Source of the DNA: an uncultured Pseudomonadales bacterium | Lineage (GTDB): Bacteria; Pseudomonadota; Gammaproteobacteria; Pseudomonadales; Cellvibrionaceae | Assembly (NCBI GenBank): GCA_938048505.1 | Contig: CALIUX010000048.1 | Coordinates: 1-13,307 of the forward strand | Direction: 5' to 3' | Length of the DNA stretch: 13,307 nt | In this document: piece by piece, positions 149-13,307 of the stretch | How the letters are laid out: the number at the start of each line of letters is the position of its first letter | Numbering within the stretch: position 1 is the stretch's first letter | Program-made: the position numbers and the translations under genes | Notes under the pieces: model-generated | Seen by the model: the letters and a program-made list of their open reading frames with translations, nothing else | What the model was told of the DNA's origin: nothing | The model's database searches: none

Positions 149-2353
149 GTGAATCAGTATTTTTATTTCGAGAGACAGCAGGCTCGAGTGTATGCGATGT
201 CAATTGTCGCGCTTGCTTTACCCTTGAGTGCTTGGAGTCAGTCAAATGATGTTCCTATCTTAGAGGAAGTGATTGTTACTTCCCAGAAACGTGCGCAAAC
301 ATTGCAAGAAATTCCAGCAGCGGTGACGCCAATCACAGGGGAATTCGTTGAAGAATTGCTTGCCGGTGGTGAAAATATTCGTGCATTGGCCGCACGTGCG
401 CCGAGCTTGCAGATTGAATCATCTAATGGTCGACAATCTCCGCGTTTTTATATCCGGGGTTTGGGGAATTACGATTTTGATGTGAATGCAACCCAGCCTG
501 TATCCATGATCTATGACAATATTGTTTTAGAGAATTCAGTCTTAAAGAGTTTGCCGTTATTTGATATTGAGCGCATTGAAGTATTACAAGGGCCTCAGGG
601 AACGCTTTTTGGTAGGGGGACCACGGCAGGTGTTGTCAAAATAGATTCTGTCAAACCTTCTAGCGATTACAGTGCTCAAACATCACTGAGCTACGGTAGT
701 CGTGAGACGTTGAATGCTCAAGCCGCAGCAGGCGGAGCTTTGTCTGATTCAGTGAATGGTCGCATGGCTTTTAATTATCTGCGACGTGGAGATTGGATCA
801 ATAACACAGTCAGTGATTCAAATGGTGATGATTTTGGCGGGTTTGATGAGCTAAGCTACCGTTTTCAGATTGGTGTAGAACCTTCTGATGATTTGTCACT
901 ACTCTTTAAACTCCACGGCTTTCATCAAGACGGTAATCAGCCACAAATATTCTATGCTAATGCCTTTACGCCAGGGACAGAAGGTTTGCGCCCTGGCTTT
1001 GATGAAACGGTTGTTTCGCATGATGCAGAGGCCGGTTTCGATCTTGATCATATTGGCGCGAGCGCTCAGGTGGAGTGGTATTTTAATGATATGACACTGA
1101 CATCGATAACGTCTTACGATACGCTTGAAAGTTCTAGTCAGGCAGATGTTGATGGTGGTCTAGCACCCTTTAGTGTTGCTTCGGGTGATGGCCTGTCAGA
1201 TCATTCACAAATTACACAAGAGCTAAGACTGTCTGGCGAGAGTGATGCACTCTTTTATCAGGTAGGTTTATTTATACTTGATGAAGATATTGTCGTAGAC
1301 AGTCAAGACTTTGATAATGATGGAAACTCAACATCACTCACCCAAGTCGATCAACAAACCGATTCTGCTGCACTATTTGGCCAAGTTGAATTTTTGCTTT
1401 CTGATGATCTTTCTATGACCGTTGGCGGCCGTTATACCAGCGATGATAAAGACCTTGAAGTTATCCCTGGAGCAGGCTCGCAAGCACCAGCCGCAACGAT
1501 TGATGCAGATGATGATTATTTTAATTGGGAAATGGCGCTCAATTATGAAATGACCGATGACCTGAGCCTCTATGCGAGGGCTGCAACAGCCTCCCGTGGC
1601 CCTGTGACTTTGGGGCGCTTTGGATTTACTAGCCAAGCCGATACAGAAGATGTTTTATCTTATGAGGTTGGTTTTAAGAGCTACTACTTTGGCGATCAGC
1701 TACGCTGGAACACCACTCTTTACCGTTATGAAATAGATGATCAGCAGCTGACGGCTACAGGTGGGTCTGGTAACACAAATGAATTATTGAATGCAGATAA
1801 AACTTTAGGTTCAGGTTTTGAAACAGACCTTGAGGCAATAATTACTGATAACTTTCGAGTGAGTTTTAACCTAAGTTACAACAATACCGAAATTGATGAC
1901 CCTGGCTTGCTCGTTGAGCAGTGTTCTTCTAACCCTTTATGTACAAGCCTAGATCCTGTTGTTGAGACGTTTGATGGCTTTTTTGGTGAGGTGAATCTTG
2001 TTTCGGTAGATGGTAACCCCTTGCCTAGAGCGCCCGAGTGGATTGCTAATATTAAGCTCGATTATGAGTACCCCTTCGATTTGGGTGTAGCGTATTTCTC
2101 GACGGATTGGAATTACCGTACAGACTCGAATATCTTCCTTTATGAATCTGTAGAGTTTGTCGCGGTTGAACGCTGGATCGGTGGTGCAAGAATTGGCTTT
2201 AAAACGCCAGATCGCAGTACTGATATTGCGCTCGTTTCCCGCAATATTACGGATGAAATTGTTGCTGAAGGAGCGCTAGATTTTTTGAATCCCACTGCAT
2301 TTGTTAATGAACCTAGGTATGTTGGGATTGAGTTTAGAAAGTCATTTGATTAA
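149..2353 (+). CDS. TonB-dependent outer-membrane receptor
   Basis: This 734-residue protein should be a TonB/ExbBD-energised 22-strand outer-membrane barrel that imports a specific ligand. An N-terminal hydrophobic export signal spans residues 17-30. It is followed by a TonB-box-like stretch (EEVIVT, residues 39-44) and a plug domain at about 50-165 that contains the hallmark QGPQGTLFGR (147-156). The rest is barrel-like sequence with many alternating aromatic strands, ending in RNITDE and a last strand finishing FRKSFD, so one Asp follows the usual terminal Phe. The TonB-box wording (EEVIVTSQKR, then IPAAVTPI) is typical of receptors common in marine gammaproteobacteria and sphingomonads, many of unknown ligand. 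The two genes that follow, in the same direction, are purine nucleoside enzymes, so a nucleoside or nucleic-acid breakdown product is a reasonable ligand guess. Siderophore uptake is the alternative. Translation starts at GTG. Family is certain; substrate is inferred. Confidence 0.93.
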   Translation: MNQYFYFERQQARVYAMSIVALALPLSAWSQSNDVPILEEVIVTSQKRAQTLQEIPAAVTPITGEFVEELLAGGENIRALAARAPSLQIESSNGRQSPRFYIRGLGNYDFDVNATQPVSMIYDNIVLENSVLKSLPLFDIERIEVLQGPQGTLFGRGTTAGVVKIDSVKPSSDYSAQTSLSYGSRETLNAQAAAGGALSDSVNGRMAFNYLRRGDWINNTVSDSNGDDFGGFDELSYRFQIGVEPSDDLSLLFKLHGFHQDGNQPQIFYANAFTPGTEGLRPGFDETVVSHDAEAGFDLDHIGASAQVEWYFNDMTLTSITSYDTLESSSQADVDGGLAPFSVASGDGLSDHSQITQELRLSGESDALFYQVGLFILDEDIVVDSQDFDNDGNSTSLTQVDQQTDSAALFGQVEFLLSDDLSMTVGGRYTSDDKDLEVIPGAGSQAPAATIDADDDYFNWEMALNYEMTDDLSLYARAATASRGPVTLGRFGFTSQADTEDVLSYEVGFKSYYFGDQLRWNTTLYRYEIDDQQLTATGGSGNTNELLNADKTLGSGFETDLEAIITDNFRVSFNLSYNNTEIDDPGLLVEQCSSNPLCTSLDPVVETFDGFFGEVNLVSVDGNPLPRAPEWIANIKLDYEYPFDLGVAYFSTDWNYRTDSNIFLYESVEFVAVERWIGGARIGFKTPDRSTDIALVSRNITDEIVAEGALDFLNPTAFVNEPRYVGIEFRKSFD

Positions 2354-2384
2354 TGATATAAGTATTTAATATTGCTCATTTAGG

Positions 2385-2416
2385 AAGCATACAACTGAAA
2401 ATTCAGTTTTATGCTT
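2385..2416. terminator. Hairpin between receptor and adenosine deaminase genes
   Basis: Arms at 2385-2399 and 2402-2416 are complementary at 14 of 15 positions (AAGCATACAACTGAA against TTCAGTTTTATGCTT). The inner A/T pairs would open to give a realistic loop. Only a weak T-run follows (TGTTATT), so this may be a leaky or attenuating terminator, or an mRNA processing/stability structure, rather than a full stop. It lies 31 bases after the receptor stop codon and ends about 60 bases before the preferred start of the next gene. Confidence 0.5.
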
Positions 2417-2477
2417 TGTTATTCGATCTATATGAGTAGTGTCAAATCCTTTTTTATTGGCGATTTTGGGTTGTTTT

Positions 2478-3944
2478 ATGTCTTTAAGGCGAAGAGTATA
2501 TTATTCATTACTGTTAATGGCTTGCGCGCTACTTGCATATGGTCATAAGGCTTATTCAGATGAGCGATGGTTTGAATCATTCAAAAAAAGTGCAACAGAC
2601 TTTGAGCTTTATCAGTTTCTTTATGCTCTACCTAAAGGCGCTGATTTGCATAATCACTTATCAGGCTCGAACTTCAGTGAGTGGTGGTATGAGCTTGCGC
2701 TTAATAAAGACATTAATCGCGGTTATCAGTATTACACCAAGGTAAAGATAAATAATTGCCCTGGGTATGGCGGCAATATGTTTGGTTTTTCGCCTTATCT
2801 TATGCTCTTTGTTAATTTACAAAAAAGCAGTTATGACGCTCTAACGGATTGTGAAAAAGAAGAGTATAAAAAGCTTGAAGATTTAACCCCTCAAGAAAAA
2901 GCTGGATGGTTAAGCAGTATCCGGCTAGATAAGGCGCATGAGGGGCGAGAAGAGTTCTTTCAAACACACTGGCAGAGACTGAAAGATCTTGCTGCTAACC
3001 CCTATATCCTTGCAGAGATGATCTACAAGAATATGCAAGCTTTCAGTAAAGAAGGTATTGTCTATTTGGAACTGCAAGAAGGTACTCGGTATTATAAAAA
3101 ACTGGATGGTACTTTTTATTCTCCAGAAGCGGTTGCTGATATATTTCGTGAGCGTATAAGCCGTAAAGATGCAAAAGAGACTGGCGTAACAGTCAGAATG
3201 CAGTATTACCTATTGCGTTTTATTGATAATGCAGAGGAAGATCTAGAATGGATTTATCGTTTTGTTGATCAAAATCGTGATCTGTATGTAGGGATAAATA
3301 TGGTCGGGCGAGAAGATAACGATAAAGGTTATCCTCTACGCTTTTTAAGTACCCTAAGAAAACTTCGGCAAAAGATACCTAAAATTAATTTGGCTATACA
3401 CGCAGGAGAGGTGGATGAGCCCAATAAGCATGTTAAAGATACACTCTTGCTGGGTGCTCAGCGCATAGGGCATGGCGTCAATTTAATCACGGATCCCGAT
3501 ACGCTGTTATTGATGAGAAATAATGATTTCTTGGTTGAAATCAATCTTGTGAGCAACTTGTTGTTGGAGTATGTCGGGCAATACTCTGAGCATCCATTTC
3601 CTGAGTACCTGCGCACAGGCATCCCCGTTGCACTCTCAACTGATGACAGGGGAATGTGGGATTCCAATATGACAGATGAATATTTTGTTGCTGTTAAAGA
3701 ATTTAATTTGTCTTGGTCTGAACTAATTTCATTAGGCCGTAATTCTTTAAGTCACAGTTTTTTAGAAGATAACATAAAGCAAAAAAAGCTTTCAGATTAT
3801 GAATCGAGAGTAATGATCTTTCAGCGCCAATTCCGTAAGAATCCAAATAAGATTTTAAAGACTAGTAAACCCATAAGCTATGGATTCTTGTGTAAGCGTT
3901 ATCAATTATGCTTTTCTGAAGAGGCTAAAGAGAATCAAAAATAG
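2478..3944 (+). CDS. Exported adenosine deaminase (metal-dependent, ADA/ADGF-like)
   Basis: This 488-residue enzyme is predicted to deaminate adenosine (or deoxyadenosine) to inosine outside the cytoplasm. All zinc and catalytic motifs of the adenosine deaminase family are visible: the HxH pair in LPKGADLHNHLSG (His58, His60), HAGE (His308 and its Glu), GHG (His332), and STDD (Asp389, Asp390). A segment of about 130 residues between the first motif and the rest of the barrel makes it longer than cytoplasmic Add (about 330 residues), as in secreted ADGF/ADA2-type enzymes. The N-terminus MSLRRRVYYSLLLMACALLA is a Sec signal, with probable cleavage after residue 27 (AYS). I chose the ATG at 2478. 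An in-frame GTG at 2439 would add 13 hydrophobic residues before the Arg cluster and spoil the signal layout. Sampled lines are about 30-43% GC, generally lower than the flanking genes. Deaminase activity on another purine is possible. Confidence 0.88.
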   Translation: MSLRRRVYYSLLLMACALLAYGHKAYSDERWFESFKKSATDFELYQFLYALPKGADLHNHLSGSNFSEWWYELALNKDINRGYQYYTKVKINNCPGYGGNMFGFSPYLMLFVNLQKSSYDALTDCEKEEYKKLEDLTPQEKAGWLSSIRLDKAHEGREEFFQTHWQRLKDLAANPYILAEMIYKNMQAFSKEGIVYLELQEGTRYYKKLDGTFYSPEAVADIFRERISRKDAKETGVTVRMQYYLLRFIDNAEEDLEWIYRFVDQNRDLYVGINMVGREDNDKGYPLRFLSTLRKLRQKIPKINLAIHAGEVDEPNKHVKDTLLLGAQRIGHGVNLITDPDTLLLMRNNDFLVEINLVSNLLLEYVGQYSEHPFPEYLRTGIPVALSTDDRGMWDSNMTDEYFVAVKEFNLSWSELISLGRNSLSHSFLEDNIKQKKLSDYESRVMIFQRQFRKNPNKILKTSKPISYGFLCKRYQLCFSEEAKENQK

Positions 3945-4012
3945 TCATTTTCATTTGGTGGTGGTCTGTTTTTGCAATTAATAGCCTGTTTTTTAATTAT
4001 CTGATTGTTGTA

Positions 4013-4033
4013 ACTTTAGTCGTATCACTTTAG
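4013..4033 (+). promoter_or_regulatory. Direct repeat in the NUP gene leader, possible regulator site
   Basis: ACTTTAG occurs at 4013-4019 and again at 4027-4033, a 14-base offset, within the 116-base gap before the NUP gene. A weak promoter-like pair overlaps it: TTGTAA at 4008 and TAGATG at 4031, with a 17-base spacer. This suggests the NUP gene may have its own start of transcription, but both elements are poor matches. Confidence 0.2.
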
Positions 4034-4049
4034 ATGCGGCTATAAATTT

Positions 4050-4056
4050 GAGGTGA
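4050..4056 (+). promoter_or_regulatory. Strong ribosome binding site for the NUP gene
   Basis: GAGGTGA lies just upstream of the ATG at 4061, with GAGG 7 bases from it. This fixes the start despite an unusually long stretch before the hydrophobic signal core, and disfavours the internal ATG at 4130. Confidence 0.65.
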
Positions 4057-4060
4057 ATAA

Positions 4061-5197
4061 ATGAAGTTTAATAGATTGCCTGTTCGGGCTGTTGATCGTG
4101 TTGGTGTAGGCAAGCTGATTTCAAACACTATGTCTATAGTTGTTATGTTTGTTATCGCTACTTTAGCTGGGTGTGGGACAACGCCAACAGCGTTGAATGT
4201 TTCTTCAGCGGTTGAGCCGATAAAACCTAAAGTTATTGTTGTGACTATGTTCGAAATTGGTGAAGATGAAGGCGATAAGGCAGGTGAGTTTCAGCTATGG
4301 AAGGAGCGCCGAAACCTCAATGTGCGATTTCCCTTCAAAAATTCTCATCACGACATTTATTACAACGATGAGAGTGGCATTATGGTAATAGTGACAGGTA
4401 TTGGTACGGCTAAATCATCATCTGCCATTATGGCCTTGGGCATGGATCCGCGGTTTGATCTGAGCCAAAGTTATTGGCTGGTTGCAGGTATTGCTGGCAT
4501 AGACCCCGAAGATGCCTCAGTAGGTTCAGCTGCATGGGCAGAAAATCTAATTGATGGTGATTTGGCGCATCATATCGATATGCGTGAAGCGCCTAAGGAT
4601 TGGGATACAGGCTATTTCCCTTTGTTTACTCAGAAGCCTTATGATCCAAATAAACAGCGCCCGCTAGGTGAGGTGTACCAGCTGAATTTGCCCTTTGTTA
4701 ATTGGGCTTATGAACTGACAAAAAATGTTGAAATTGATGATGATGCCTCTCTGTCTGATATACGAAACCAATACACTCAGCATCCTAATGCAAAGCGAAA
4801 GCCTTTTGTTATGAAGGGTGATCAGTTAGCTGCGATGACTTTTTGGCATGGTGAATTGCATAATACTTGGGCAAATAACTGGGTAAAGTACTGGACTGAT
4901 GGTGTAGGTGAGTTTGTAACGAGCGCCATGGAAGATACGGGCACTTATTTGTCATTGAATTATTTAACGCAAATTGACCGCGCTAATGTGAATCGACTAT
5001 TAGTCCTGCGTACCGGTAGCAATTACACCATGCAGCCACCGAATAAAACAGCAGTGCAAAACCTGATCGAAGAAGGTGAGGATTATGCAGGGCTGGATGT
5101 TGCACTGGAATCAGCTTACAAGGTAGGGTCTGTTGTTGTGGATGAGATTATTGGTAATTGGAGTGTCTATCAAGGCACAACGCCCGCAGCTCAATAA
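4061..5197 (+). CDS. Purine nucleoside permease (NUP) family lipoprotein
   Basis: This 378-residue protein belongs to the family named after the Candida purine nucleoside permease NUP. A lipoprotein signal ends in LAGC, with Cys38 as the lipidated residue and Gly at +2, which is compatible with the outer membrane. The mature part is soluble with no membrane helix, so it is unlikely to be a transporter itself. It carries motifs that line up with the nucleoside phosphorylase fold: VTGIGT (111-116, like the phosphate/glycine loop), VAGIAG (141-146), AMEDTG (about 289-294, like the Met-Glu ribose-binding motif) and RTGSNY (317-322, in the place of the base-binding S-D loop). Its role is therefore more likely nucleoside binding or cleavage at the envelope. 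It follows the exported adenosine deaminase in the same direction, which would supply inosine. Family assignment is firm; phosphorylase, hydrolase or binding activity is inferred. Confidence 0.85.
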   Translation: MKFNRLPVRAVDRVGVGKLISNTMSIVVMFVIATLAGCGTTPTALNVSSAVEPIKPKVIVVTMFEIGEDEGDKAGEFQLWKERRNLNVRFPFKNSHHDIYYNDESGIMVIVTGIGTAKSSSAIMALGMDPRFDLSQSYWLVAGIAGIDPEDASVGSAAWAENLIDGDLAHHIDMREAPKDWDTGYFPLFTQKPYDPNKQRPLGEVYQLNLPFVNWAYELTKNVEIDDDASLSDIRNQYTQHPNAKRKPFVMKGDQLAAMTFWHGELHNTWANNWVKYWTDGVGEFVTSAMEDTGTYLSLNYLTQIDRANVNRLLVLRTGSNYTMQPPNKTAVQNLIEEGEDYAGLDVALESAYKVGSVVVDEIIGNWSVYQGTTPAAQ

Positions 5198-5355: not shown

Positions 5356-6459
5356 CTAAGTGGGCTGTAAGCTTTCGTCTGGGATAACCGGCTCTTGAGG
5401 TTGTTCTGCTTTGTCACTTCTTGTTTTAAATGCTTTTACTTGTGCCCATAGCTTATCTGATAGCTTTTGAGTGTTCTTCCAGCTGCCACTTTCTTCTTGC
5501 ATCCATTGAATGATTTCACTTGCAACATCAGGGTAAGCTACTTGCTTGGCGTGACCATGTTTAAGCCAATGAGCAACTTTATTTTGTTCTAGGGTATCCA
5601 TTGTCATTCCTAAAGAAAGCTCTTCTAGCGCTCTTGCATTGGATAACTGTTCCATTTGCCCTTGAAGCGGTTTTACTAACAGTTTTTTCCCTAATTGAAT
5701 CGCTTCGCTAGCCAATTCAAACCCTGCATTACAAATCACCCCTGAAGCACTGGATAGATCACGCTGAAATCCTTCGCGCGATAGCGGTTTTAACTGTATA
5801 TGATCATAGTTTTGGTACTTTTCATACGGACCATAAACGACAAACAGGTAGTTCTTAAAGGGCTCTAAAAGCCGAATCACATCATCGTGGGATTCAAACC
5901 CCAGGTAGACTACAATTTTATTCTCTTCCGGTGCGTGCTTAGAGGTATGCACTTCTGCAATAGGCGGTAGAATAGGTTGGTCAAAATGATGCCAGTGCAA
6001 GCCTAGGTGTACATCTGCAGGTGCAAAATGACGCATGATAGCGCGTGACATAATGTTATCGCCGCGCCTAGGTACATTGCTGTAAAAAGCATATTGATGC
6101 CCCACGCCAATGCACGTTACATTTTGTCTTTTTGCCGCCCATGCTGTAATGGGTTCAAAGTCTGTCACCACTAAATCATAGCCGCTTAAATCTAATGTTC
6201 GAATATCACGTAAAAGTGTTCGAAGGCTATTGTGCGCGATTGTTTTGGGTATGCTGAGCTGACCTGCTTTATGAATAAAGGTCAGCCCTTTTTTACATTG
6301 CCATCTCCCAAACGGCTCCATATCAAAGAATTTGTCTTTATCACGCCCTGAAAAAAGATAATCGACTTCAATATTGGCTTTGTTAAAGGCTTTGGATAAT
6401 GCACGCGCGCGTGTAATGTGACCGTTGCCGGTCCCTTGTACGCCATAGAGTATTTTCAT
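5356..6459 (-). CDS. MJ1255/VC2487-type glycosyltransferase (GT-B fold)
   Basis: This 367-residue protein resembles the glycosyltransferase family named after MJ1255 and VC2487, related to MurG/GT28 enzymes. The N-terminal Rossmann half opens with the glycine loop GVQGTGNGHITRARAL (GTGNGH at 9-14), a common acceptor-side signature in GT-B enzymes. The C-terminal half carries NAGFELASEAIQLGKK (from Asn244) followed by PLQGQMEQ, matching the nucleotide-sugar donor site region of GT28. There is no signal peptide, so it should act at the cytoplasmic face of the membrane. Its ATG lies two bases after the stop of the PAP2 phosphatase gene, so the two are almost surely cotranscribed and perhaps translationally coupled. 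The last 25 or so residues are polar, Pro/Glu-rich and probably disordered. Sugar donor and acceptor cannot be told from sequence; a glycolipid is the natural guess. Confidence 0.82.
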   Translation of the reverse strand: MKILYGVQGTGNGHITRARALSKAFNKANIEVDYLFSGRDKDKFFDMEPFGRWQCKKGLTFIHKAGQLSIPKTIAHNSLRTLLRDIRTLDLSGYDLVVTDFEPITAWAAKRQNVTCIGVGHQYAFYSNVPRRGDNIMSRAIMRHFAPADVHLGLHWHHFDQPILPPIAEVHTSKHAPEENKIVVYLGFESHDDVIRLLEPFKNYLFVVYGPYEKYQNYDHIQLKPLSREGFQRDLSSASGVICNAGFELASEAIQLGKKLLVKPLQGQMEQLSNARALEELSLGMTMDTLEQNKVAHWLKHGHAKQVAYPDVASEIIQWMQEESGSWKNTQKLSDKLWAQVKAFKTRSDKAEQPQEPVIPDESLQPT

Positions 6460-6461
6460 TG

Positions 6462-6977
6462 TTATACCAGTTGACTAATCAGTATTAAGCATAAAGAGCT
6501 ACCTAATGTAGCGCCTGCTAAAACATCAGTAGGGAAGTGTACGCCCAGCATGACACGTGCTGCGCCAACACATAGAGCCCACGGGAAGAGTACCCAAGCC
6601 ATAGCGGGGAATGCCCAGCTGACTGCAACCGTTACAAGGAAGGCAGCAGATGTATGACCTGATGGAAAGCTGAATTTGTCAGATGGTCTAATCACGCTAG
6701 TAAACCCCGGAATGGCTTCGGGAGGGCGGTTGCGTTTAAACGTATTTTTGCAAATGAAATACACTGCACGCTCGAGCACAAACCCGAACGCTAAGAGTTT
6801 GACCAAGATCCAATGCTCTGCCAGCATAAATAATAAGCCAGCTAAAACATAGAAAGGTCCATTGGCGGTATAGGAAACAATGCGGCTCAGCCCAATAACC
6901 GTTTGACGGTGTTTAAGCTTGAGGCACCACCTAAAAGTAAGGACATCCGCGTGCTGAATTGCTTGAAATATTCGCAT
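6462..6977 (-). CDS. PAP2-family membrane phosphatase
   Basis: This 171-residue integral membrane protein belongs to the type 2 phosphatidic acid phosphatase family, which removes phosphate from lipid phosphates or lipid pyrophosphates, usually at the periplasmic face. All three motifs are present: K77-x6-R84-P85, then PSGH at 105-108 (His108 acid/base), then R141-x5-H147-x3-D151, where His147 is the nucleophile. The usual Ser before Arg141 is Ala here. About four to six hydrophobic segments are visible. It precedes the glycosyltransferase by two bases, suggesting the two act on one lipid substrate, for example recycling or trimming a lipid carrier. Undecaprenyl-pyrophosphate, phosphatidylglycerophosphate or lipid A phosphatase roles are all possible. 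The leader upstream has no clear Shine-Dalgarno. Confidence 0.87.
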   Translation of the reverse strand: MRIFQAIQHADVLTFRWCLKLKHRQTVIGLSRIVSYTANGPFYVLAGLLFMLAEHWILVKLLAFGFVLERAVYFICKNTFKRNRPPEAIPGFTSVIRPSDKFSFPSGHTSAAFLVTVAVSWAFPAMAWVLFPWALCVGAARVMLGVHFPTDVLAGATLGSSLCLILISQLV

Positions 6978-7071
6978 GAGTCATCGTTATTATTTTTAAG
7001 TTAACAATAACTGAAAATGTTAAATTCATTTTGTGACAAATGCATGCAGCTTTTATGGCTATTTGATGACA

Positions 7072-7100
7072 CGTTCAATATTATGCCATTACGTTGAACG
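7072..7100. repeat. Short inverted repeat between dolP and the PAP2 gene
   Basis: CGTTCAA (7072-7078) and TTGAACG (7094-7100) form a 7-bp dyad with a 15-base spacer in the 183-base gap downstream of dolP and upstream of the PAP2 gene. No T-run follows on the minus strand, so it is a poor terminator and more likely an operator-like dyad or chance. I saw no gene or RNA in the rest of the gap. Confidence 0.25.
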
Positions 7101-7160
7101 CTATACCGTGATTCTTCTCAGTAGCCTTCAATATTGGATATTCTGTTTGATTCTATTGTT

Positions 7161-7793
7161 TTAAATCGGTGCGCGTTCATGCTCAGGAACTAGCTCTACT
7201 GCACGTACAACACGCCTAACGCCTTTGGTCGTGCTGGCAACCTCTGCAATGGCAGCTGCCTCTTTTTCGGTTAGTAGGCCCATAATGTAGACGATGCGGT
7301 TTTCGACAATGATTTTCACGCGGTTAATTTCTATTAATTTTTTCTTAACAATCTTGCCTGTGATTTTTGTTGCAATCCAATTATCGTTTGTGCGTGAAAA
7401 AATGGTCGACTTGCTCGCAATTTGTATCTCATTATTAACTTGTCTTACTGCTGTCATGTCGCGCGCTATGGCACCAGCTACTTCGCGCAACTGCTGATTT
7501 GGCACTTCCCCTGTCAGCAAAACAATTCCGTTGTAGCTTGCGACATTAATATTGGCCTTTTTGAGTTTGGGGTCGGCTTTATCAATATTGACCTTTAAAT
7601 GCCTTTTGATTTGCACATCATCAATTTTCTCGCCTCTTGATCTTTGACCTGGGTCTTGGTGAACAGGGCTTTTATGTGTAGCAGATAAAAATTGTGTGCA
7701 GCCTGATAAATTAAAGCCGCTGATCAAGAATGACAAAATAAGTAAAGCGCGTACAAAACGTATGGCTTTCTGATAAGAAGAGGTGAGATACAT
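7161..7793 (-). CDS. dolP: DolP (YraP), two-BON-domain outer-membrane lipoprotein
   Basis: This 210-residue protein matches DolP, which binds anionic phospholipid, sits at the division site and outer membrane, and supports envelope integrity and BAM function in E. coli. The signal ends in LSGC, with Cys32 lipidated and Thr at +2, consistent with outer-membrane sorting. Two BON domains follow, at about 58-126 (ending VNNEIQI) and 137-205 (starting NDNWIATKI). Trp139 corresponds to the Trp in the lipid-contacting helix of the second BON domain of E. coli DolP. The linker after the Cys is longer and more polar than in E. coli. The ATG lies two bases after the diaA stop. A GGAG (7799-7802, minus strand) inside the end of diaA gives a 5-base spacing, so translation is probably coupled. 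Last gene of the lpoA-yraN-diaA-dolP series. Confidence 0.92.
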   Translation of the reverse strand: MYLTSSYQKAIRFVRALLILSFLISGFNLSGCTQFLSATHKSPVHQDPGQRSRGEKIDDVQIKRHLKVNIDKADPKLKKANINVASYNGIVLLTGEVPNQQLREVAGAIARDMTAVRQVNNEIQIASKSTIFSRTNDNWIATKITGKIVKKKLIEINRVKIIVENRIVYIMGLLTEKEAAAIAEVASTTKGVRRVVRAVELVPEHERAPI

Positions 7794-7795
7794 GA

Positions 7796-8383
7796 TTACT
7801 CCATACCAAATAAGTTGTGGTCAATAAGGTCGCATAAACAATAAAGCGAAAGGAGGTGGATTTCATGAATCCTGCCTCGCGAATCAATGTCGGCTCTGAG
7901 TTCAATATCGTGATTGTCTAGTAGGCTAGACACGTCGCCGCCATCGCGCCCAGTGAGTGCAATAACATTTAAGCCTCTTTCATGCGCGGTGGTCACTGCC
8001 TGAATAAGGTTAGACGCGTTCCCGCTACTGGTAATCACAACCAGCGTGTCACCTTCTTGCCCGAGTCCCCTAATAGGCTTTGCGTATACTTCGTTATAGT
8101 GAGCAGGTGTGACCATTGCTGTATAGCTGGCCATGTTGCTACCTAGCCAGATGGCCGGCAGGCTGGGGCGTTCCTTTTCATAACGGTCAATCAAAGCGGC
8201 TGAGAACATTTGCGCTAAGGCAGAAGAGGGGCCATTACCACAGACAAGGATCTTACCTTCGTGTAGTAATGTTTGAACTAATGCATCGGCGGCTTCTTCA
8301 ATACGAGGAATAAGCACTTCACCAACATTCATCTTTGCTTCGATGCTGGCTTGAAACATTTCATAGGTGCGTTGCGATGACAT
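7796..8383 (-). CDS. diaA: DiaA, SIS-domain DnaA-binding initiator protein
   Basis: This 195-residue protein is the expected length for DiaA (E. coli 196). It has one SIS (sugar isomerase) domain: ILVCGNGPSSALAQ at about 45-58, then TLVVITSSGNASNLI, then VIALTGRDGGDVSSLL. In E. coli, DiaA tetramers bind DnaA and promote ordered assembly at oriC. The C-terminus LCDLIDHNLFGME keeps the Leu-Phe pair that in E. coli DiaA contacts DnaA. It resembles the GmhA heptose isomerase family, but the operon position (yraN before, dolP after) and the tail point to DiaA. The His next to the first SIS loop in E. coli (AQHF) is Met here, which does not matter for a non-catalytic role. The ATG at 8383 has only a weak Shine-Dalgarno. 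A 104-base gap without recognisable features separates it from yraN. Confidence 0.9.
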   Translation of the reverse strand: MSSQRTYEMFQASIEAKMNVGEVLIPRIEEAADALVQTLLHEGKILVCGNGPSSALAQMFSAALIDRYEKERPSLPAIWLGSNMASYTAMVTPAHYNEVYAKPIRGLGQEGDTLVVITSSGNASNLIQAVTTAHERGLNVIALTGRDGGDVSSLLDNHDIELRADIDSRGRIHEIHLLSLYCLCDLIDHNLFGME

Positions 8384-8487
8384 GATAATAGCTTCTTGGT
8401 TATTGTTCGGTGTATAAAATGTTTAGTCGGTACTACAGTATTTAGTTAATGCATTGTGTTTAGCAGCCAGTACACCGTGTCGCTAGC

Positions 8488-8844
8488 TTAATGGCTAATA
8501 AATGCATTGGGCAGCCATATAATACTCTCAGCGTTTAAGTTAATCATACCCATGACATCAAAGCGCATGGCGGTTGTATGAGGTAGGCGCTGGCTGAGCA
8601 TGTAATGCTGGGCTGCACAGATGATTTTTTGCTGCTTGGTTTGGTTGACCGATTCAACGGGGTTTCCAAAAGCAGCATTTTTTCTATTTTTTACCTCTAC
8701 AAAAACCCACTGTTCATTATCTCGAAAGATTAAATCGATTTCACCGAGCTTGCAGCGGTAGTTAGAGGTTACATACGTTAAGCCTTGCTCCTCTAAATAA
8801 TGTTTTGCAATGGCTTCTCCGGCTATTCCAATGGTGGTACTCAT
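8488..8844 (-). CDS. yraN: YraN family protein (UPF0102, nuclease-like fold)
   Basis: This 118-residue protein matches the UPF0102/YraN family, which has a PD-(D/E)XK/Holliday-resolvase-like fold but no settled function. The core motif is visible: GEAIAKHYLEEQGL, then GEIDLIFRD (GEID acidic residues), then FVEVKNRK, with PVESVNQTKQQKI and RFDVMG following as in the family. I chose the ATG at 8844, because GGGAG (8853-8857, minus strand) lies 8 bases upstream. The in-frame GTG at 8853 would put that site directly against the start. It sits between lpoA and diaA as in E. coli. A role in DNA processing is inferred from the fold only. Confidence 0.88.
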   Translation of the reverse strand: MSTTIGIAGEAIAKHYLEEQGLTYVTSNYRCKLGEIDLIFRDNEQWVFVEVKNRKNAAFGNPVESVNQTKQQKIICAAQHYMLSQRLPHTTAMRFDVMGMINLNAESIIWLPNAFISH

Positions 8845-8852
8845 TACCTTCA

Positions 8853-8857
8853 CTCCC
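8853..8857 (-). promoter_or_regulatory. Ribosome binding site deciding the yraN start
   Basis: GGGAG on the minus strand stands 8 bases before the ATG at 8844. It overlaps the alternative GTG at 8853, which argues for the shorter protein. Confidence 0.5.
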
Positions 8858-8917
8858 TGTGTTTAATGGCGGATTTTGAACTGTTATGCTCTATTGCGTT
8901 TTATTTTGTTGCGAACT

Positions 8918-10897
8918 TCATTCTTCTGGCGGTGCATCGGCAGGTGAATGAAATAGGTGTGGACGTCCTTTTTTAAACATCGCCCATTGTTGTTTACGTA
9001 AAAATTGTCGTTGGCCGTTTAAGGATAAAATGCCAATTTGCCCCCAAAAGCGGGCGTTTTTGGATTCTTGCAATTGCATCAGACGAGGGTACAAGTAATA
9101 GGTGTCTACACCTAGGGCGTATAACCTTTGCATGCTAGCGCTCAAAGGACGATTGGCTGTGACCAAGCTTTTTTCCGGTGAATCTTGAAAAAACCAAGGC
9201 AGGTGACTGAACTGAATACCATTGAGGTCTGAGTCGTTACCGGCGCTGTTACCTTCATAAATACGGCTTGTGCTATAGATAGGAATACGGCCCGCGTAGT
9301 GGAATGCAAAAAGTGGTTTGATCTGGCGGCCTTGGCGGGGTTTGGCCATCAAAAAAATCATATCCACATCTTTGCGTGGCCTAGGTTCGAATTTGAACCC
9401 TCCGATGTGACTTTGAAGTTGTTTTGCACGCCGTTTGCTATCGTTAATGCGCATAGCGTTTTCGATAAGACCTGATAATTCAGGGTCGGAGCTATACCGT
9501 GTAACACCGGCAATGCTCCCCCCCAAAGATTGCCAATGACGCGTAAAGGCCTGTGCTGCGCGTTCACCCTGTTGGCTGCTAGGCACCATAATCAGGGCCG
9601 TTTCTTTACCGTCTTTATGGGCACGTTCAGCAGCCTGAATCGCTTCGTCTTCAATACCGAGGCCAAGTTGGAATAGTTGCTTAGGTGCATGTACGCCTTC
9701 AGCAATATTGTTTAAACCTAGCGTGATGACTGGCAGTTGTGGCCGTAAAGCGAGCTGATCAATATCTTTTTTACTCAAGGGGCCGATAACCACTTCAGCG
9801 CCTTCGGATATGGCTAGATCATAGTGCGCATTAATGTCACCCTCACTGACGTCATAAAAGGCTACATCGGGCACGGTTCCGCCTGCCGCTTGATTCGTAT
9901 AGTAAGCGGCCATAAAACCATCACGAATCGCAGAACCGGCTTTACCTAATTTACCTGAGGTGGGCAGTAGTACGGCAACATTATTGGGCTGATTGTTGAC
10001 AATGTCGGCAATCAGCGCAAGATCAGCGGGAAGAGGCCGGTTAGCAGGGTGAGTACTCCATTCTGCCTGCCATATCTGCAAGGCACTATATTGCTGGCTG
10101 ATGTTACGCTGATTATCTTTACTGACGACGGCAAGCGTATACCAGCCTTCTTCAGTCGTTTTACCATTTTGTTGGTTTTTTTGTCGTGCTTGCTCAAGCT
10201 GTTCTAGATCCAGCTCCATGAGCGTCATCCAGATCAGCTCTTGGTTAATCTGCTGATCTGGGTGTTCGTCAAGTGAGCTTACAGAACTGGACTGAGCGCT
10301 GATGGGTTGAATGCCCCCATTCAAAATACTTGCCGAGGGTCTGCTTAATACTGTGCTTTGCGCACGATCGGTATAGCCTGATGTTTGCTCGAGGACTTCG
10401 GCAAGTTCAATGCGCTCGGTGATACTCATCTCCCATTCGCCTAAATCGTAATAGAGCTCAGCACGATGCGCGCGAATCGGCAGTAATGACGTAGGGGGTG
10501 AGGGCATCCTGAGTAATGCATGAACGCGATCACTTTCCAGAAGGCCTTTGGCTTCATAGATATTTTGCGTTTTAATAAGGGCGTGGCTTTGAATATGTGT
10601 ATGTTTGACGTAGAGTGCGTCGCTCAAAGGTTCTGCAGGTACTGTTTGAACAATAGCTAATGCGCGTTGAGGGTTGTTAGCTCTAAGAAACGCTTCTGCT
10701 GCAATCAGTAATTGCTCTGACTTTTTTACGCCCTGCTGCTTTAATGCTTGGCTGTACAGCTCTTCTGGTGTTGCGGCAATGGCTGAGCTGCCTTTTATGC
10801 TTGGCTCTTTAGTTGGCGAGCTTTGGCAGCCGCTCATTAGCATGCTGACTGAGAGTAAACTCGATACAACGAGGGGGCTGAACCAGTGCTTTTTCAT
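8918..10897 (-). CDS. lpoA: LpoA, outer-membrane lipoprotein activator of PBP1A
   Basis: This protein of about 659 residues matches LpoA (E. coli 678), the outer-membrane lipoprotein that reaches through the peptidoglycan to stimulate the synthase PBP1A. The signal ends LMSGC, with the lipidated Cys at residue 24 and Gln at +2. An N-terminal TPR-like helical domain runs to about residue 280, containing AEAFLRANNPQRALAIV and RAELYYDLGEWEMS. The C-terminal domain from about residue 300 has the periplasmic-binding-protein fold typical of LppC/LpoA: VAVLLPTSGKLGKAG, then VIGPLSKKDI, then PVITLGLN. A Ser/Gln-rich segment at about 169-209 interrupts the helical domain. It is the first gene of the yraN-diaA-dolP operon and divergent from rsmI. 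The ATG is used here; a GTG lies one codon upstream (10900), and AAAGG fits either start. Confidence 0.93.
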   Translation of the reverse strand: MKKHWFSPLVVSSLLSVSMLMSGCQSSPTKEPSIKGSSAIAATPEELYSQALKQQGVKKSEQLLIAAEAFLRANNPQRALAIVQTVPAEPLSDALYVKHTHIQSHALIKTQNIYEAKGLLESDRVHALLRMPSPPTSLLPIRAHRAELYYDLGEWEMSITERIELAEVLEQTSGYTDRAQSTVLSRPSASILNGGIQPISAQSSSVSSLDEHPDQQINQELIWMTLMELDLEQLEQARQKNQQNGKTTEEGWYTLAVVSKDNQRNISQQYSALQIWQAEWSTHPANRPLPADLALIADIVNNQPNNVAVLLPTSGKLGKAGSAIRDGFMAAYYTNQAAGGTVPDVAFYDVSEGDINAHYDLAISEGAEVVIGPLSKKDIDQLALRPQLPVITLGLNNIAEGVHAPKQLFQLGLGIEDEAIQAAERAHKDGKETALIMVPSSQQGERAAQAFTRHWQSLGGSIAGVTRYSSDPELSGLIENAMRINDSKRRAKQLQSHIGGFKFEPRPRKDVDMIFLMAKPRQGRQIKPLFAFHYAGRIPIYSTSRIYEGNSAGNDSDLNGIQFSHLPWFFQDSPEKSLVTANRPLSASMQRLYALGVDTYYLYPRLMQLQESKNARFWGQIGILSLNGQRQFLRKQQWAMFKKGRPHLFHSPADAPPEE

Positions 10898-11029
10898 CAC
10901 GCGATAACCTTTCCGCTTGTGCTTAAAGTATTCATTGAAACGTCGCCATTGAGCATTTTACGGTACCCATATCTGTACAAAATCGGTGTTTACTGACCTG
11001 ATTTATTATATTGAATCTACCCCACTAAG

Positions 11030-11055
11030 GAGTGAGCGTTAGGCAACGCTCACTC
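11030..11055. promoter_or_regulatory. Perfect 11-bp stem-loop in the rsmI leader
   Basis: GAGTGAGCGTT (11030-11040) and AACGCTCACTC (11045-11055) pair completely around an AGGC loop. It lies 15 bases before the rsmI ribosome binding site, in the 180-base gap between divergent lpoA and rsmI. No T-run follows, so it is not a classic terminator. A leader hairpin affecting mRNA stability or translation, or an operator, is possible. The rest of the gap holds TATAAT-like elements on both strands (for example TATAAT on the minus strand near 11015) but no complete promoter I could defend. Confidence 0.45.
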
Positions 11056-11070
11056 ACATCATAACCTTAT

Positions 11071-11074
11071 GGAG
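11071..11074 (+). promoter_or_regulatory. Ribosome binding site deciding the rsmI start
   Basis: GGAG stands 6 bases before GTG at 11081. The in-frame ATG at 11069 overlaps this site and has no Shine-Dalgarno of its own, which favours the GTG. Confidence 0.5.
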
Positions 11075-11080
11075 CATAAT

Positions 11081-11956
11081 GTGTCTGACCCTACCGATTC
11101 GGGTACTCTTTTGGGTACGCTGTATATTGTGGCTACACCTATTGGTAATTTAGGCGATATGGTACCGCGTGCTATCGATATTCTCCACAAAGTCTCTGTG
11201 ATTGCAGCAGAAGATACGCGCCATAGTGCTAAGTTGTTACAGCATTTTGGTATTCAGACGAAAACCATGGCCTATCACGACCACAGCGATGATGCTCGAG
11301 TGCAGGCTATTATTGACCGGCTTGTACGTGGCGACAGCATTGCCTTAATCAGTGATGCGGGAACCCCTTTGATTTCTGATCCCGGTTATCGCTTAGTACA
11401 TGCTGCCAGGCAGCAAGGTATTCGAGTTGAGCCGATCCCAGGTGCGTGTGCGCTCGTAGCAGCGTTGAGCGCGAGTGGTTTGCCCAGTAATCGATTCTGC
11501 TTTGAAGGGTTTTTGCCTGCTAAGAATGCTGCAAGAGAACAGGTGTTGCAGAGCTTAATGAGTGACCCGCGCACACTTATTTTTTATGAATCACCGCACC
11601 GCATTGAGGCCAGCCTGCAATCTGTAATGACTGTTTTGGGTGGACAACGAGAAATTGTGGTGGCCCGTGAAATCACAAAAACGTTCGAAACCTTCTTAGC
11701 AGGTACTGTTGCGGAGGTAATACAGATGTTGGCGTCGGACCCTAATCAAAAACGGGGTGAAATGGTTTTGATGATACGCGGCTTTGAAGAAGTAAAAGAA
11801 AAAGCGATTGATGCAGATGCAGAGCGCTTGCTTGGCTTATTGTGTGAAGAGCTACCTCTTAAAAAAGCGGCTGCATTAGCCGCTAAAATAACGGGCTTGA
11901 AAAAGAATGCACTGTATCAATATGGTTTAGAGATGTCTGGTAAAGGGGCGCGCTAG
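11081..11956 (+). CDS. rsmI: RsmI, 16S rRNA (cytidine-1402-2'-O)-methyltransferase
   Basis: RsmI uses S-adenosylmethionine to 2'-O-methylate C1402 in the decoding centre of 16S rRNA, together with RsmH, which methylates the same base at N4. The protein (291 residues from the GTG, 295 from the ATG at 11069) matches the family length (E. coli 286). It has the tetrapyrrole-methylase-like fold motifs: LYIVATPIGNLGDM, then AAEDTRHS, SDAGTPLISDPGYRLV, PGACALVAALSASGLP, FEGFLPAK, LIFYESPHRI and KGEMVL-like RGEMVLMI. The C-terminal helical part ends ELPLKKAAALAAKITG with KKNALY, as in E. coli. It is divergent from lpoA, the conserved gammaproteobacterial arrangement. The GTG start is chosen on the ribosome binding site. 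Confidence 0.95.
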   Translation: MSDPTDSGTLLGTLYIVATPIGNLGDMVPRAIDILHKVSVIAAEDTRHSAKLLQHFGIQTKTMAYHDHSDDARVQAIIDRLVRGDSIALISDAGTPLISDPGYRLVHAARQQGIRVEPIPGACALVAALSASGLPSNRFCFEGFLPAKNAAREQVLQSLMSDPRTLIFYESPHRIEASLQSVMTVLGGQREIVVAREITKTFETFLAGTVAEVIQMLASDPNQKRGEMVLMIRGFEEVKEKAIDADAERLLGLLCEELPLKKAAALAAKITGLKKNALYQYGLEMSGKGAR

Positions 11957-11988
11957 GTTTTTGGGTGAATGCTTTTAGTCGATGCTTT

Positions 11989-12026
11989 TTTAGTTAGTAC
12001 TTTGTTAGTTAGTGCTATTTGTTAGC
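11989..12026. repeat. Imperfect TTAGTTAGT repeats between rsmI and the GIY-YIG gene
   Basis: TTAGTTAGT followed by ACTTTG, then TTAGTTAGT followed by GCTATTTG, then TTAGC, form short imperfect tandem repeats in the 104-base gap between two convergent genes. They lack a GC-rich stem and look like simple-sequence drift; no convincing terminator was found in this gap. Confidence 0.3.
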
Positions 12027-12060
12027 TCTTTTACGTGAACGCTTTGATAAACATAATTGG

Positions 12061-12351
12061 TTAATCCTCGTTGCAGATGAGCAATTCTTTTTGGGCTTTA
12101 GTCATTTTTTTAATCGCGTATTCTCTTTGGTAAGCTTGCTGCTTACTAAGCTCTTTCTCTGAGTAGGCTAGAGTCAGTGGGCGCCTGCAGCGCGTATATT
12201 TTGCGCCTTTTCGGTTGCAATGATTATGCTCCTGAACGCGCCGATTAAGGTCAGTCGTAACGCCCGTGTATAAGCTGCCATCAGCGCAGCGCAGAATATA
12301 AATTGCCCAGCTGGGTTTGGGTTTCGAGAGCTCAGTTTCATTGCTTGTCAT
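12061..12351 (-). CDS. GIY-YIG domain protein, YhbQ/UPF0213-like
   Basis: This 96-residue protein consists almost wholly of a GIY-YIG nuclease-type domain. SWAIYILRCADGSLYTGVTTD (residues 14-34) holds the variant IYI...YTG core, followed by LNRRVQEHN with the catalytic-type Arg37. Then come KGAKYTRCRRPLTLAYSE and a helix with REYAIKKMTKAQKE supplying the conserved Glu. Length and wording match E. coli YhbQ, a small stand-alone family with reported or presumed nuclease activity but no clear pathway. In E. coli yhbQ lies a few genes from dolP, so the neighbourhood is also in keeping. The first 13 residues are polar and probably disordered. The start has no clear Shine-Dalgarno. It converges with rsmI. 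Confidence 0.87.
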   Translation of the reverse strand: MTSNETELSKPKPSWAIYILRCADGSLYTGVTTDLNRRVQEHNHCNRKGAKYTRCRRPLTLAYSEKELSKQQAYQREYAIKKMTKAQKELLICNED

Positions 12352-12446
12352 AGGTAATCTATGCGGTTCTTTTTATATGCCTTAACCTGTCTTGTAATCT
12401 GATGTTGAGAGTCAGGTTTGCCTAAGTAGCTGATCACAGTCGCTTG

Positions 12447-13307
12447 CTAGCTTGCAACTTTACGGAAAAGCCATTCTAAAGGGCCAGTTTTGAAATATTT
12501 AAACCACATAACACTAAACGTAACCCCACAAACACAAAATATTAATGCGCTGAATAATGAAAAATTAATTGTTTGCTTTACTAGCAATCCCATAGATTCA
12601 AGAATCCCCATACCTAAAATGACATGAGCAACATACAAGGTTAAAGATAATTTTCCTGTCTGACATAACCACTTATGTATGTTGCTTTCTGGAAATGTAT
12701 CAGAAAAATATAAGCAACCTATCAGCACTATTACAGCGGAGCTTCCAGCAGAAATAATGTATTGCGGTAAAGGAGGAATGATAGACGTTGAAAATAAAAA
12801 TCTCACCTCATCGTTTGTCATTTCCAGTGCAGTGCCATCTCCGATAGTTAGTCTGATTATATAAAATAAACTCTCGGTGATAATCAAAGTTATTACAGCA
12901 CTTAAGAGCAATCTTTTTCTTGTTGCCTTTTGAGAAAGGTCTTTCCTGCCCAACCACATACCGAATATTAAAAAGGCAGTCCAAGGAAATATTGGGTGAA
13001 AACCGTTAAACACTATATGTCGAACCATTCCATCAAACGACCAAAAATTTTCATAGGTCAAAGATGCCCAATTCCAGTTTTGTTCGTAATTAAAAAACAG
13101 CATTAAGCTAGGGAATGCTAGCATTAGCATTATTGATAATAGCAGCAGTGTTCTGTCATTAAACATAAAAACAACAGAGGCAATTAAGAAATAGAATCCG
13201 TAGAAATGTAGGATATCTGCTTCCCAGATTGGTGTATATAGAAGCCCTATGAATACCAGTAATAAACCACGTTTTATAAGTGATATACGGCCTTTAGAAA
13301 TAGATAT
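12447..13307 (-). CDS. DUF418/acyltransferase-like multi-pass membrane protein, N-terminus beyond window
   Basis: The reading frame is open from 12447 through the right edge, so at least 286 residues are present and the start is outside the window. An internal ATG at 13166 is not the start, because the 47 codons upstream are clearly coding: RGLLLVFIGLLYTPIWEADILHFYGFYFLIA, here broken as RGLLLVFIGLLYTP then IWEADILHFYGFYFLIA. That wording, with FHPIFPWTAFLIFGMWLGR, GKLSLTLYVAHVILG and a terminal GPLEWLFRK, matches the DUF418 / heparan-glucosaminide-acetyltransferase-like membrane family. At least seven hydrophobic segments are visible. Members are thought to move acyl groups across or at the membrane; the substrate here is unknown. 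Sampled lines are about 28-35% GC against 55-63% sampled in rsmI and lpoA, hinting at a different origin. Confidence 0.75.
   Translation of the reverse strand: MSISKGRISLIKRGLLLVFIGLLYTPIWEADILHFYGFYFLIASVVFMFNDRTLLLLSIMLMLAFPSLMLFFNYEQNWNWASLTYENFWSFDGMVRHIVFNGFHPIFPWTAFLIFGMWLGRKDLSQKATRKRLLLSAVITLIITESLFYIIRLTIGDGTALEMTNDEVRFLFSTSIIPPLPQYIISAGSSAVIVLIGCLYFSDTFPESNIHKWLCQTGKLSLTLYVAHVILGMGILESMGLLVKQTINFSLFSALIFCVCGVTFSVMWFKYFKTGPLEWLFRKVAS

Follow-up and report, generated by a model that had tools for sequence, protein, structure and literature searches.

The window analysed here, the whole of the 13,307-nucleotide contig C48 (CALIUX010000048.1) of an uncultured Cellvibrionaceae bacterium whose assembly is 2.42 Mb and 72.5% complete, probably encodes a cell-envelope system that captures and cleaves purine nucleosides. 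It comprises a TonB-dependent outer-membrane receptor (TBDRw; 149..2353, + strand, 734 aa, GTG start), proposed from the neighbourhoods of its relatives to be a purine-nucleoside receptor, an exported ADGF/ADA2-like adenosine deaminase (2439..3944, + strand, 501 aa, starting at a GTG or at an ATG at 2478) and a lipoprotein of the NUP family (4061..5197, + strand, 378 aa), which has a predicted MTAN fold and would act as a purine nucleosidase in the periplasm. Open reading frame (ORF) positions and Pfam searches confirmed the three same-strand genes named in the original prediction for this DNA. Gaps of 85 and 116 bp separate the genes, and genome searches located the sole NUP and the sole PF00962 deaminase of the assembly in the window.

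In the proposed route, the receptor would actively carry purine nucleosides across the outer membrane, as the comparative context suggests, and the exported deaminase, whose family and active site are recognizable, would convert adenosine to inosine in the periplasm. The NUP lipoprotein may then hydrolyze inosine (and guanosine) to the base and free ribose, judging from its modelled fold and a tentative mapping of its residues. Base and ribose would enter the cytoplasm separately, the bases possibly via NCS2-type permeases such as the pair present on contig C103 of the same genome. Where the adenine-cleaving MTAN has Asp, NUP would have an Asn suited to 6-oxopurines, which would account for a deamination step ahead of NUP. 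The ligand of the receptor, the reactions and locations of the enzymes and the direction of flow are what we infer; the genes, their conservation, the conserved residues and the predicted fold are described below.

Conservation of the trio

Of 144 genomes searched in the family, 55 had a deaminase match and 32 had NUP, and 33 loci (window included) encoded a deaminase of the long type. The other 32 long-type loci and a weaker one (L067) were fetched, with at most 20 kb each. In all 11 loci whose deaminases are nearest to that of the window (66-71% identity), receptor, deaminase and NUP genes occur in the same order on one strand (type A). Thus, the trio is not a chance grouping, and it withstood the check set out in the original prediction, which a trio not conserved in relatives would have refuted. 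Taking near as within 15 kb, all 30 close NUP loci, with the window counted among them, had a deaminase match near NUP, which was of the long type in 27, and 28 of the 33 long deaminases had a NUP nearby, one of these NUPs being distant. For distant NUP matches, 7/15 had a deaminase match within the same range, two of them of the long type. Co-transcription of the three genes is plausible because the gaps are short and no terminator-like site was found on the + strand between them (nine such sites were found in the window, with 4.5 expected); promoter-like sites in the window showed no excess (12 found, 12.6 expected).

Genomic context of the receptor family

The receptor contains a Plug domain (PF07715, 62.3 bits; cut-off 23.9) and a TonB barrel (PF00593, 104.8 bits; cut-off 27), in agreement with its original assignment as an outer-membrane TonB receptor; its energization by TonB is predicted. 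After the signal peptide lies the stretch LEEVIVTSQKR (260..292, + strand), presumably a TonB box, of which LEE...T.QKR is kept in 8/8 aligned receptors. A plug stretch common to the receptor subfamily, ESS.GR..PR.Y.RGLGN.DFD..A.QPVS...D....EN..LK (416..547, + strand), is given by the letters invariant in the alignment of eight receptors.

We searched the 144 family genomes with the receptor, scored at most seven candidates per genome and kept full-length relatives with at least 41% identity; four weaker partial rows were dropped. Besides the window, at least 24 relatives were found (one in two pieces), 11 in type A loci and 13 elsewhere; in two of the latter (L067 and L128), a match to the deaminase or to NUP was already known. 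Nucleoside or nucleobase genes were present in the fetched stretches of 10 of the 13 loci outside the trio versus 1 of 20 control stretches drawn from the same or sister genomes; the count was 8 of 13, taken from the listing, when query genes from the same locus were left out. Together with the conserved trio, these neighbourhoods support the idea, put forward originally, that adenosine-type compounds would be imported, deaminated and further handled outside the cytoplasm.

Several of these loci serve as examples. In L123 (receptor identity 67%), a short deaminase, a ribokinase, a ribose/allose-type ABC transporter and a RihC-like hydrolase are nearby. NupC, DeoB, DeoD, DeoA and DeoC accompany the receptor relatives in L130 and L131, an exported amidohydrolase and deo genes that in L132, and a RihA-like hydrolase that in L129. 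The Rih-like matches are below their cut-offs, and the names DeoB and DeoD were assigned by eye; the NupC assignments in L067 and L130-L132 are consistent with the positions of PF07662 matches. In L125 (8573-17696), a receptor relative lies beside the pyrimidine-degrading PreA, a dihydropyrimidinase and an NCS1 permease, a neighbourhood from which the receptor family may extend to pyrimidines.

In the receptor tree, the window grouped with L043, L123 and L124 (100/100) and not with the remaining ten type A receptors, whereas the window NUP groups weakly, on a long branch, with loci carrying a different receptor, TBDR4 (type B). As the two trees place the window differently, the trio looks to have been put together more than once.

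The exported deaminase

The deaminase matches the A_deaminase family (131 bits). H71 and H73 (HxH; 2649..2657, + strand), H321 and E324 (3399..3410, + strand), H345 (3471..3473, + strand) and D402-D403 (3642..3647, + strand) are identical in 37/37 aligned deaminases. From the deaminase family, we take H71, H73 and H321 to be metal ligands, E324 and H345 to be catalytic, and the Asp pair to contact metal and substrate. A hydrophobic N-terminus, called with a simple score rather than a trained predictor, was present in 38 of 41 homologues (window included) versus 0 of 15 of the second deaminase found at some loci. The four Cys residues 107, 138, 485 and 491, also invariant in 37/37, fit an oxidizing compartment. 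Hence the claim of an exported deaminase with all its metal ligands held for the residues and agrees with the predicted N-termini.

With ADGF members, the predicted structural model could be aligned over 414-424 residues, a longer stretch than with ADA1, although Z was slightly higher for ADA1. With human ADA2 (3lgd) and the Helix pomatia AMP deaminase (9nte), the window protein shares an N-terminal extension, the stretch after the first strand being unaligned by profile, and the HxH, HAGE, GHG and DD motifs. It differs from ADGF/ADA2 proteins in being bacterial, in the four invariant Cys of its own group and in scoring 105.5 bits, below the cut-off of 315, with the NCBIfam ADGF model TIGR01431.

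The NUP lipoprotein

NUP matches PF06516 with 364.5 bits (gathering cut-off 27). Its lipobox cysteine, Cys38 in LAGC (4172..4174, + strand), is a Cys in 39/41 aligned rows; among 52 fetched homologues, 30 have a lipobox-like motif and 51 a hydrophobic N-terminus. The predicted model has a single N-terminal helix followed by a globular alpha/beta domain of the MTAN fold, which rules out the membrane permease of the Pfam name. Its 50 best fold matches were all hydrolases except one uridine phosphorylase at row 50, and NUP is closer to nucleosidases (MTAN, futalosine hydrolase) than to phosphorylases. Thus, of the originally described lipoprotein with nucleoside-phosphorylase-like motifs, the lipoprotein stood, and the phosphorylase-like part was refined to nucleosidase-like. 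At the sequence level, only PF06516 was reported, with no PF01048 match at E 0.001, and comparison with PDB sequences gave eight chance-level rows (E 0.16 or worse), a profile search giving none.

The profile alignment to MTAN, non-significant alone, places E76 (4286..4288, + strand) at Glu12, E291 (4931..4933, + strand) at Glu174 and N321 (5021..5023, + strand) at Asp197, all three being invariant in 41/41. According to this weak alignment, two members of the MTAN triad Glu12/Glu174/Asp197 are matched and Asn replaces Asp197, which we take to serve base recognition. Compared with the periplasmic MTA/SAH nucleosidase of Aeromonas hydrophila (5b7q), NUP is larger, has a lipobox, lacks the PF01048 match at the above threshold and, tentatively, has Asn at the Asp197 place. 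Two NUP proteins (P0123 and P0124, the second of them verrucomicrobial by the name of its genome) have 643-644 aa, almost double the usual length; they scored third and fourth and possibly contain two NUP domains per chain.

Exchange of parts among loci

In 14 further loci of the family, the deaminase occurs with TBDR4 (type B), a representative of which had no BLASTP match to the window receptor at E 0.001. Genes for DUF3450, ExbB-like and TonB proteins follow TBDR4 in 10 of the 14 (L046, L047, L048, L050, L051, L052, L056, L057, L059 and L061) and in L098 outside the family, with second ExbB, ExbD and TPR genes where ORF clustering displayed them, suggesting that TBDR4 in effect has a dedicated energizer. 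NUP is within the fetched stretch of 13 of the 14 loci (at the edge in L059) and, by the coordinates of its matches in the family genomes, is also present in L061. A PuuE-type allantoinase is divergent at 12/14 loci, and amidase, gamma-glutamyltransferase-like, TauE, class V aminotransferase, second deaminase and allantoate-amidohydrolase-like genes are frequent. L059, L061, L062 and L063 also have guanine deaminase, hydroxyisourate hydrolase, OHCU decarboxylase and membrane urate oxidase genes, and three of them XdhC, while NUP is missing from L062 and L063; purine genes of L059 and L061 were identified by family search and the rest of this set by similarity.

Outside the family, 13 close NUP loci were fetched (L098-L110). 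Six have a long deaminase and TBDR4 (the deaminase match in L104 is partial), and five, as well as L003, found in a single-protein contig scan that gave two loci, have the receptor type of the window (40-43%) with an exported TRZ/ATZ amidohydrolase replacing the deaminase (type C). A ribokinase gene is near NUP in three of the six type C loci, and a weaker one on the opposite strand in two. The type C transporter of L003 (7292-8293) was not adopted as a ribose carrier, its best Pfam match being Ureide_permease and the sugar model weak. Seven more distant NUP loci were also fetched, of which L113 and L114 have a deaminase, TBDR4 and an NCS2 permease. L107 (241-11732) encodes a deaminase, NUP, an ExeM-like nuclease, a 5'-nucleotidase-like protein, an outer-membrane-like protein and a NupC-like transporter (named by similarity to L067), and looks like a whole chain from nucleic acid to base.

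On balance, we favour a broader view in which Cellvibrionaceae-like and related gammaproteobacteria have a nucleoside-dedicated TBDR family and nucleoside use has been put together repeatedly from exchangeable exported components, drawn from two TBDR families (one of them with an ExbB/ExbD/TonB energizer to itself), two deaminase families and two nucleosidase families. Nucleosides would be taken apart in the periplasm, with base and ribose entering the cell, and the family named 'purine nucleoside permease' would, in these bacteria at least, be one of secreted nucleosidases.

Inner-membrane transport

As originally noted, the window has no inner-membrane transporter for nucleosides: none of the ten window proteins searched had a Pfam match to one. 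No CNT transporter was found in the 72.5% complete genome, which is weak evidence since about a quarter of the genome is missing. A 6-kb contig of this genome (C103; L122, 3-4340) encodes two NCS2 permeases next to the end of a receptor resembling TBDR4 (29% identity), and no deaminase or NUP.

Alternative explanations

Some observations weigh against a dedicated nucleoside system. One receptor relative, in L126 (2182-10265), is near ZnuABC/Zur-like genes identified by eye, the one clear non-nucleoside neighbourhood, and some members of the receptor family may therefore have a different ligand. No marker genes were found at receptor relatives L126, L127 and L133 (a 7.8-kb contig) or at NUP loci L004, L111, L112, L115, L116 and L117 (L111 and L116 under 8 kb). 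NUP was missing within 15 kb of five of the 33 long deaminases, and three genomes from the genus of the window lack both genes. The locus is patchy, since NUP was found in 36 of the 390 genomes sampled from the order and, being rare in the class, in 5 of 369. The NUP-MTAN profile alignment had an E of 0.63, with motifs paired in one of two settings, and the first alignments to E. coli Mtn put the motifs elsewhere, unpaired. Finally, the idea that NUP genomes lose CNT transporters was not borne out, CNT being no rarer in them by hand count (12/32 versus 24/112).

Two alternatives keep the route and change the role of NUP. It is unlikely that NUP is a phosphorylase releasing ribose-1-phosphate in the periplasm. 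Purine nucleoside phosphorylase and MTA phosphorylases share the NUP/MTAN fold class, and a PNP_UDP_1 protein with a hydrophobic N-terminus adjoins NUP in six loci; against these stand the predominance of hydrolases among the fold matches, the Glu that the weak alignment puts at the MTAN Glu12 position, the ribokinase of type C loci, which acts on free ribose, and the RihA/RihC-like hydrolases in two receptor loci without NUP. That NUP merely binds nucleosides and passes them uncleaved to an inner-membrane permease would agree with its lipoprotein nature, the Pfam name, the NupC-like gene of L107 and the CNT matches in 12 NUP genomes, but seems very improbable given the invariance of E76 and E291 and the 20 of 32 NUP genomes without a CNT match. 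Of the original alternatives 'bound or cleaved', cleavage, by hydrolysis, is favoured by the modelled fold, the active site and the ribokinase.

The other two concern the substrate. Import of an iron or zinc chelate or cobalamin, with incidental neighbours, could be argued from L126 and from the best named models for the window receptor, which describe receptors for siderophores, haem and B12 and all score far under cut-off. It is improbable in view of the excess of nucleoside and nucleobase genes over controls and the recruitment of two TBDR families to the same enzymes. A system for nucleotides or NAD-like compounds, with a deaminase acting on AMP, is doubtful. The closest solved relative of the deaminase by profile is the AMP deaminase 9nte (E 2e-34), so that adenosine and AMP as substrates are indistinguishable on this basis, and 5'-nucleotidase-like proteins occur in L107 and, by eye, in L067; however, human ADA2, also close by profile, is named an adenosine deaminase, and the neighbourhoods of receptor relatives, with CNT (NupC) and deo genes, indicate nucleosides.

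Comparison with known uptake systems

In E. coli, nucleosides are taken up by the passive Tsx channel together with NupC/NupG. The proposed system shares with it a dedicated protein for nucleosides at the outer membrane and differs in using a TonB-dependent receptor and in deamination and cleavage that would precede the inner membrane.

Nutrient-specific TonB-dependent transporters are described for maltose and N-acetylglucosamine and predicted for hydroxyproline and histidine in passages of PMC4659666 and PMC5343134, the regulon studies in the latter assigning TBDRs to hydroxyproline, histidine and N-acetylglucosamine. As in these cases, the receptor would be substrate-specific and tied to matching catabolic genes; here, the substrate class would be nucleosides. 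The original statement that a TonB-dependent nucleoside route is not known to be established still holds for the open-licence literature searched: none was found described by title or abstract start, or in passages of PMC8027193, PMC2847192, PMC3223726, PMC5343134, PMC4659666, PMC3400609, PMC9815663 and PMC3712917. In the main text of a marine TonB-dependent transporter survey (PMC3400609), as far as available, the words 'nucleoside' and 'purine' are absent, and the available text of a Shewanella regulon paper (PMC3223726) names nucleoside regulators with 'TonB' absent. A nutrient TBDR locus is of a known kind, and the nucleoside substrate class and periplasmic dismantling would be new. Nucleosides are among the diatom-derived compounds drawn down by marine bacteria, according to passages of PMC8027193. 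The locus yields a candidate receptor family recognizable by its plug stretch and a likely function for the probably misnamed NUP family, which has at least 5947 proteins at E 0.001.

Other features of the window

No RNA family above its gathering score and no tRNA were found in the window. The remainder (5356-13307) looks ordinary, with an MJ1255/VC2487-type glycosyltransferase, PAP2, a BON protein, an LppC lipoprotein, an RsmI-like methylase, GIY-YIG and DUF418, as well as two ORFs recognized by eye as isomerase-like and YraN-like.

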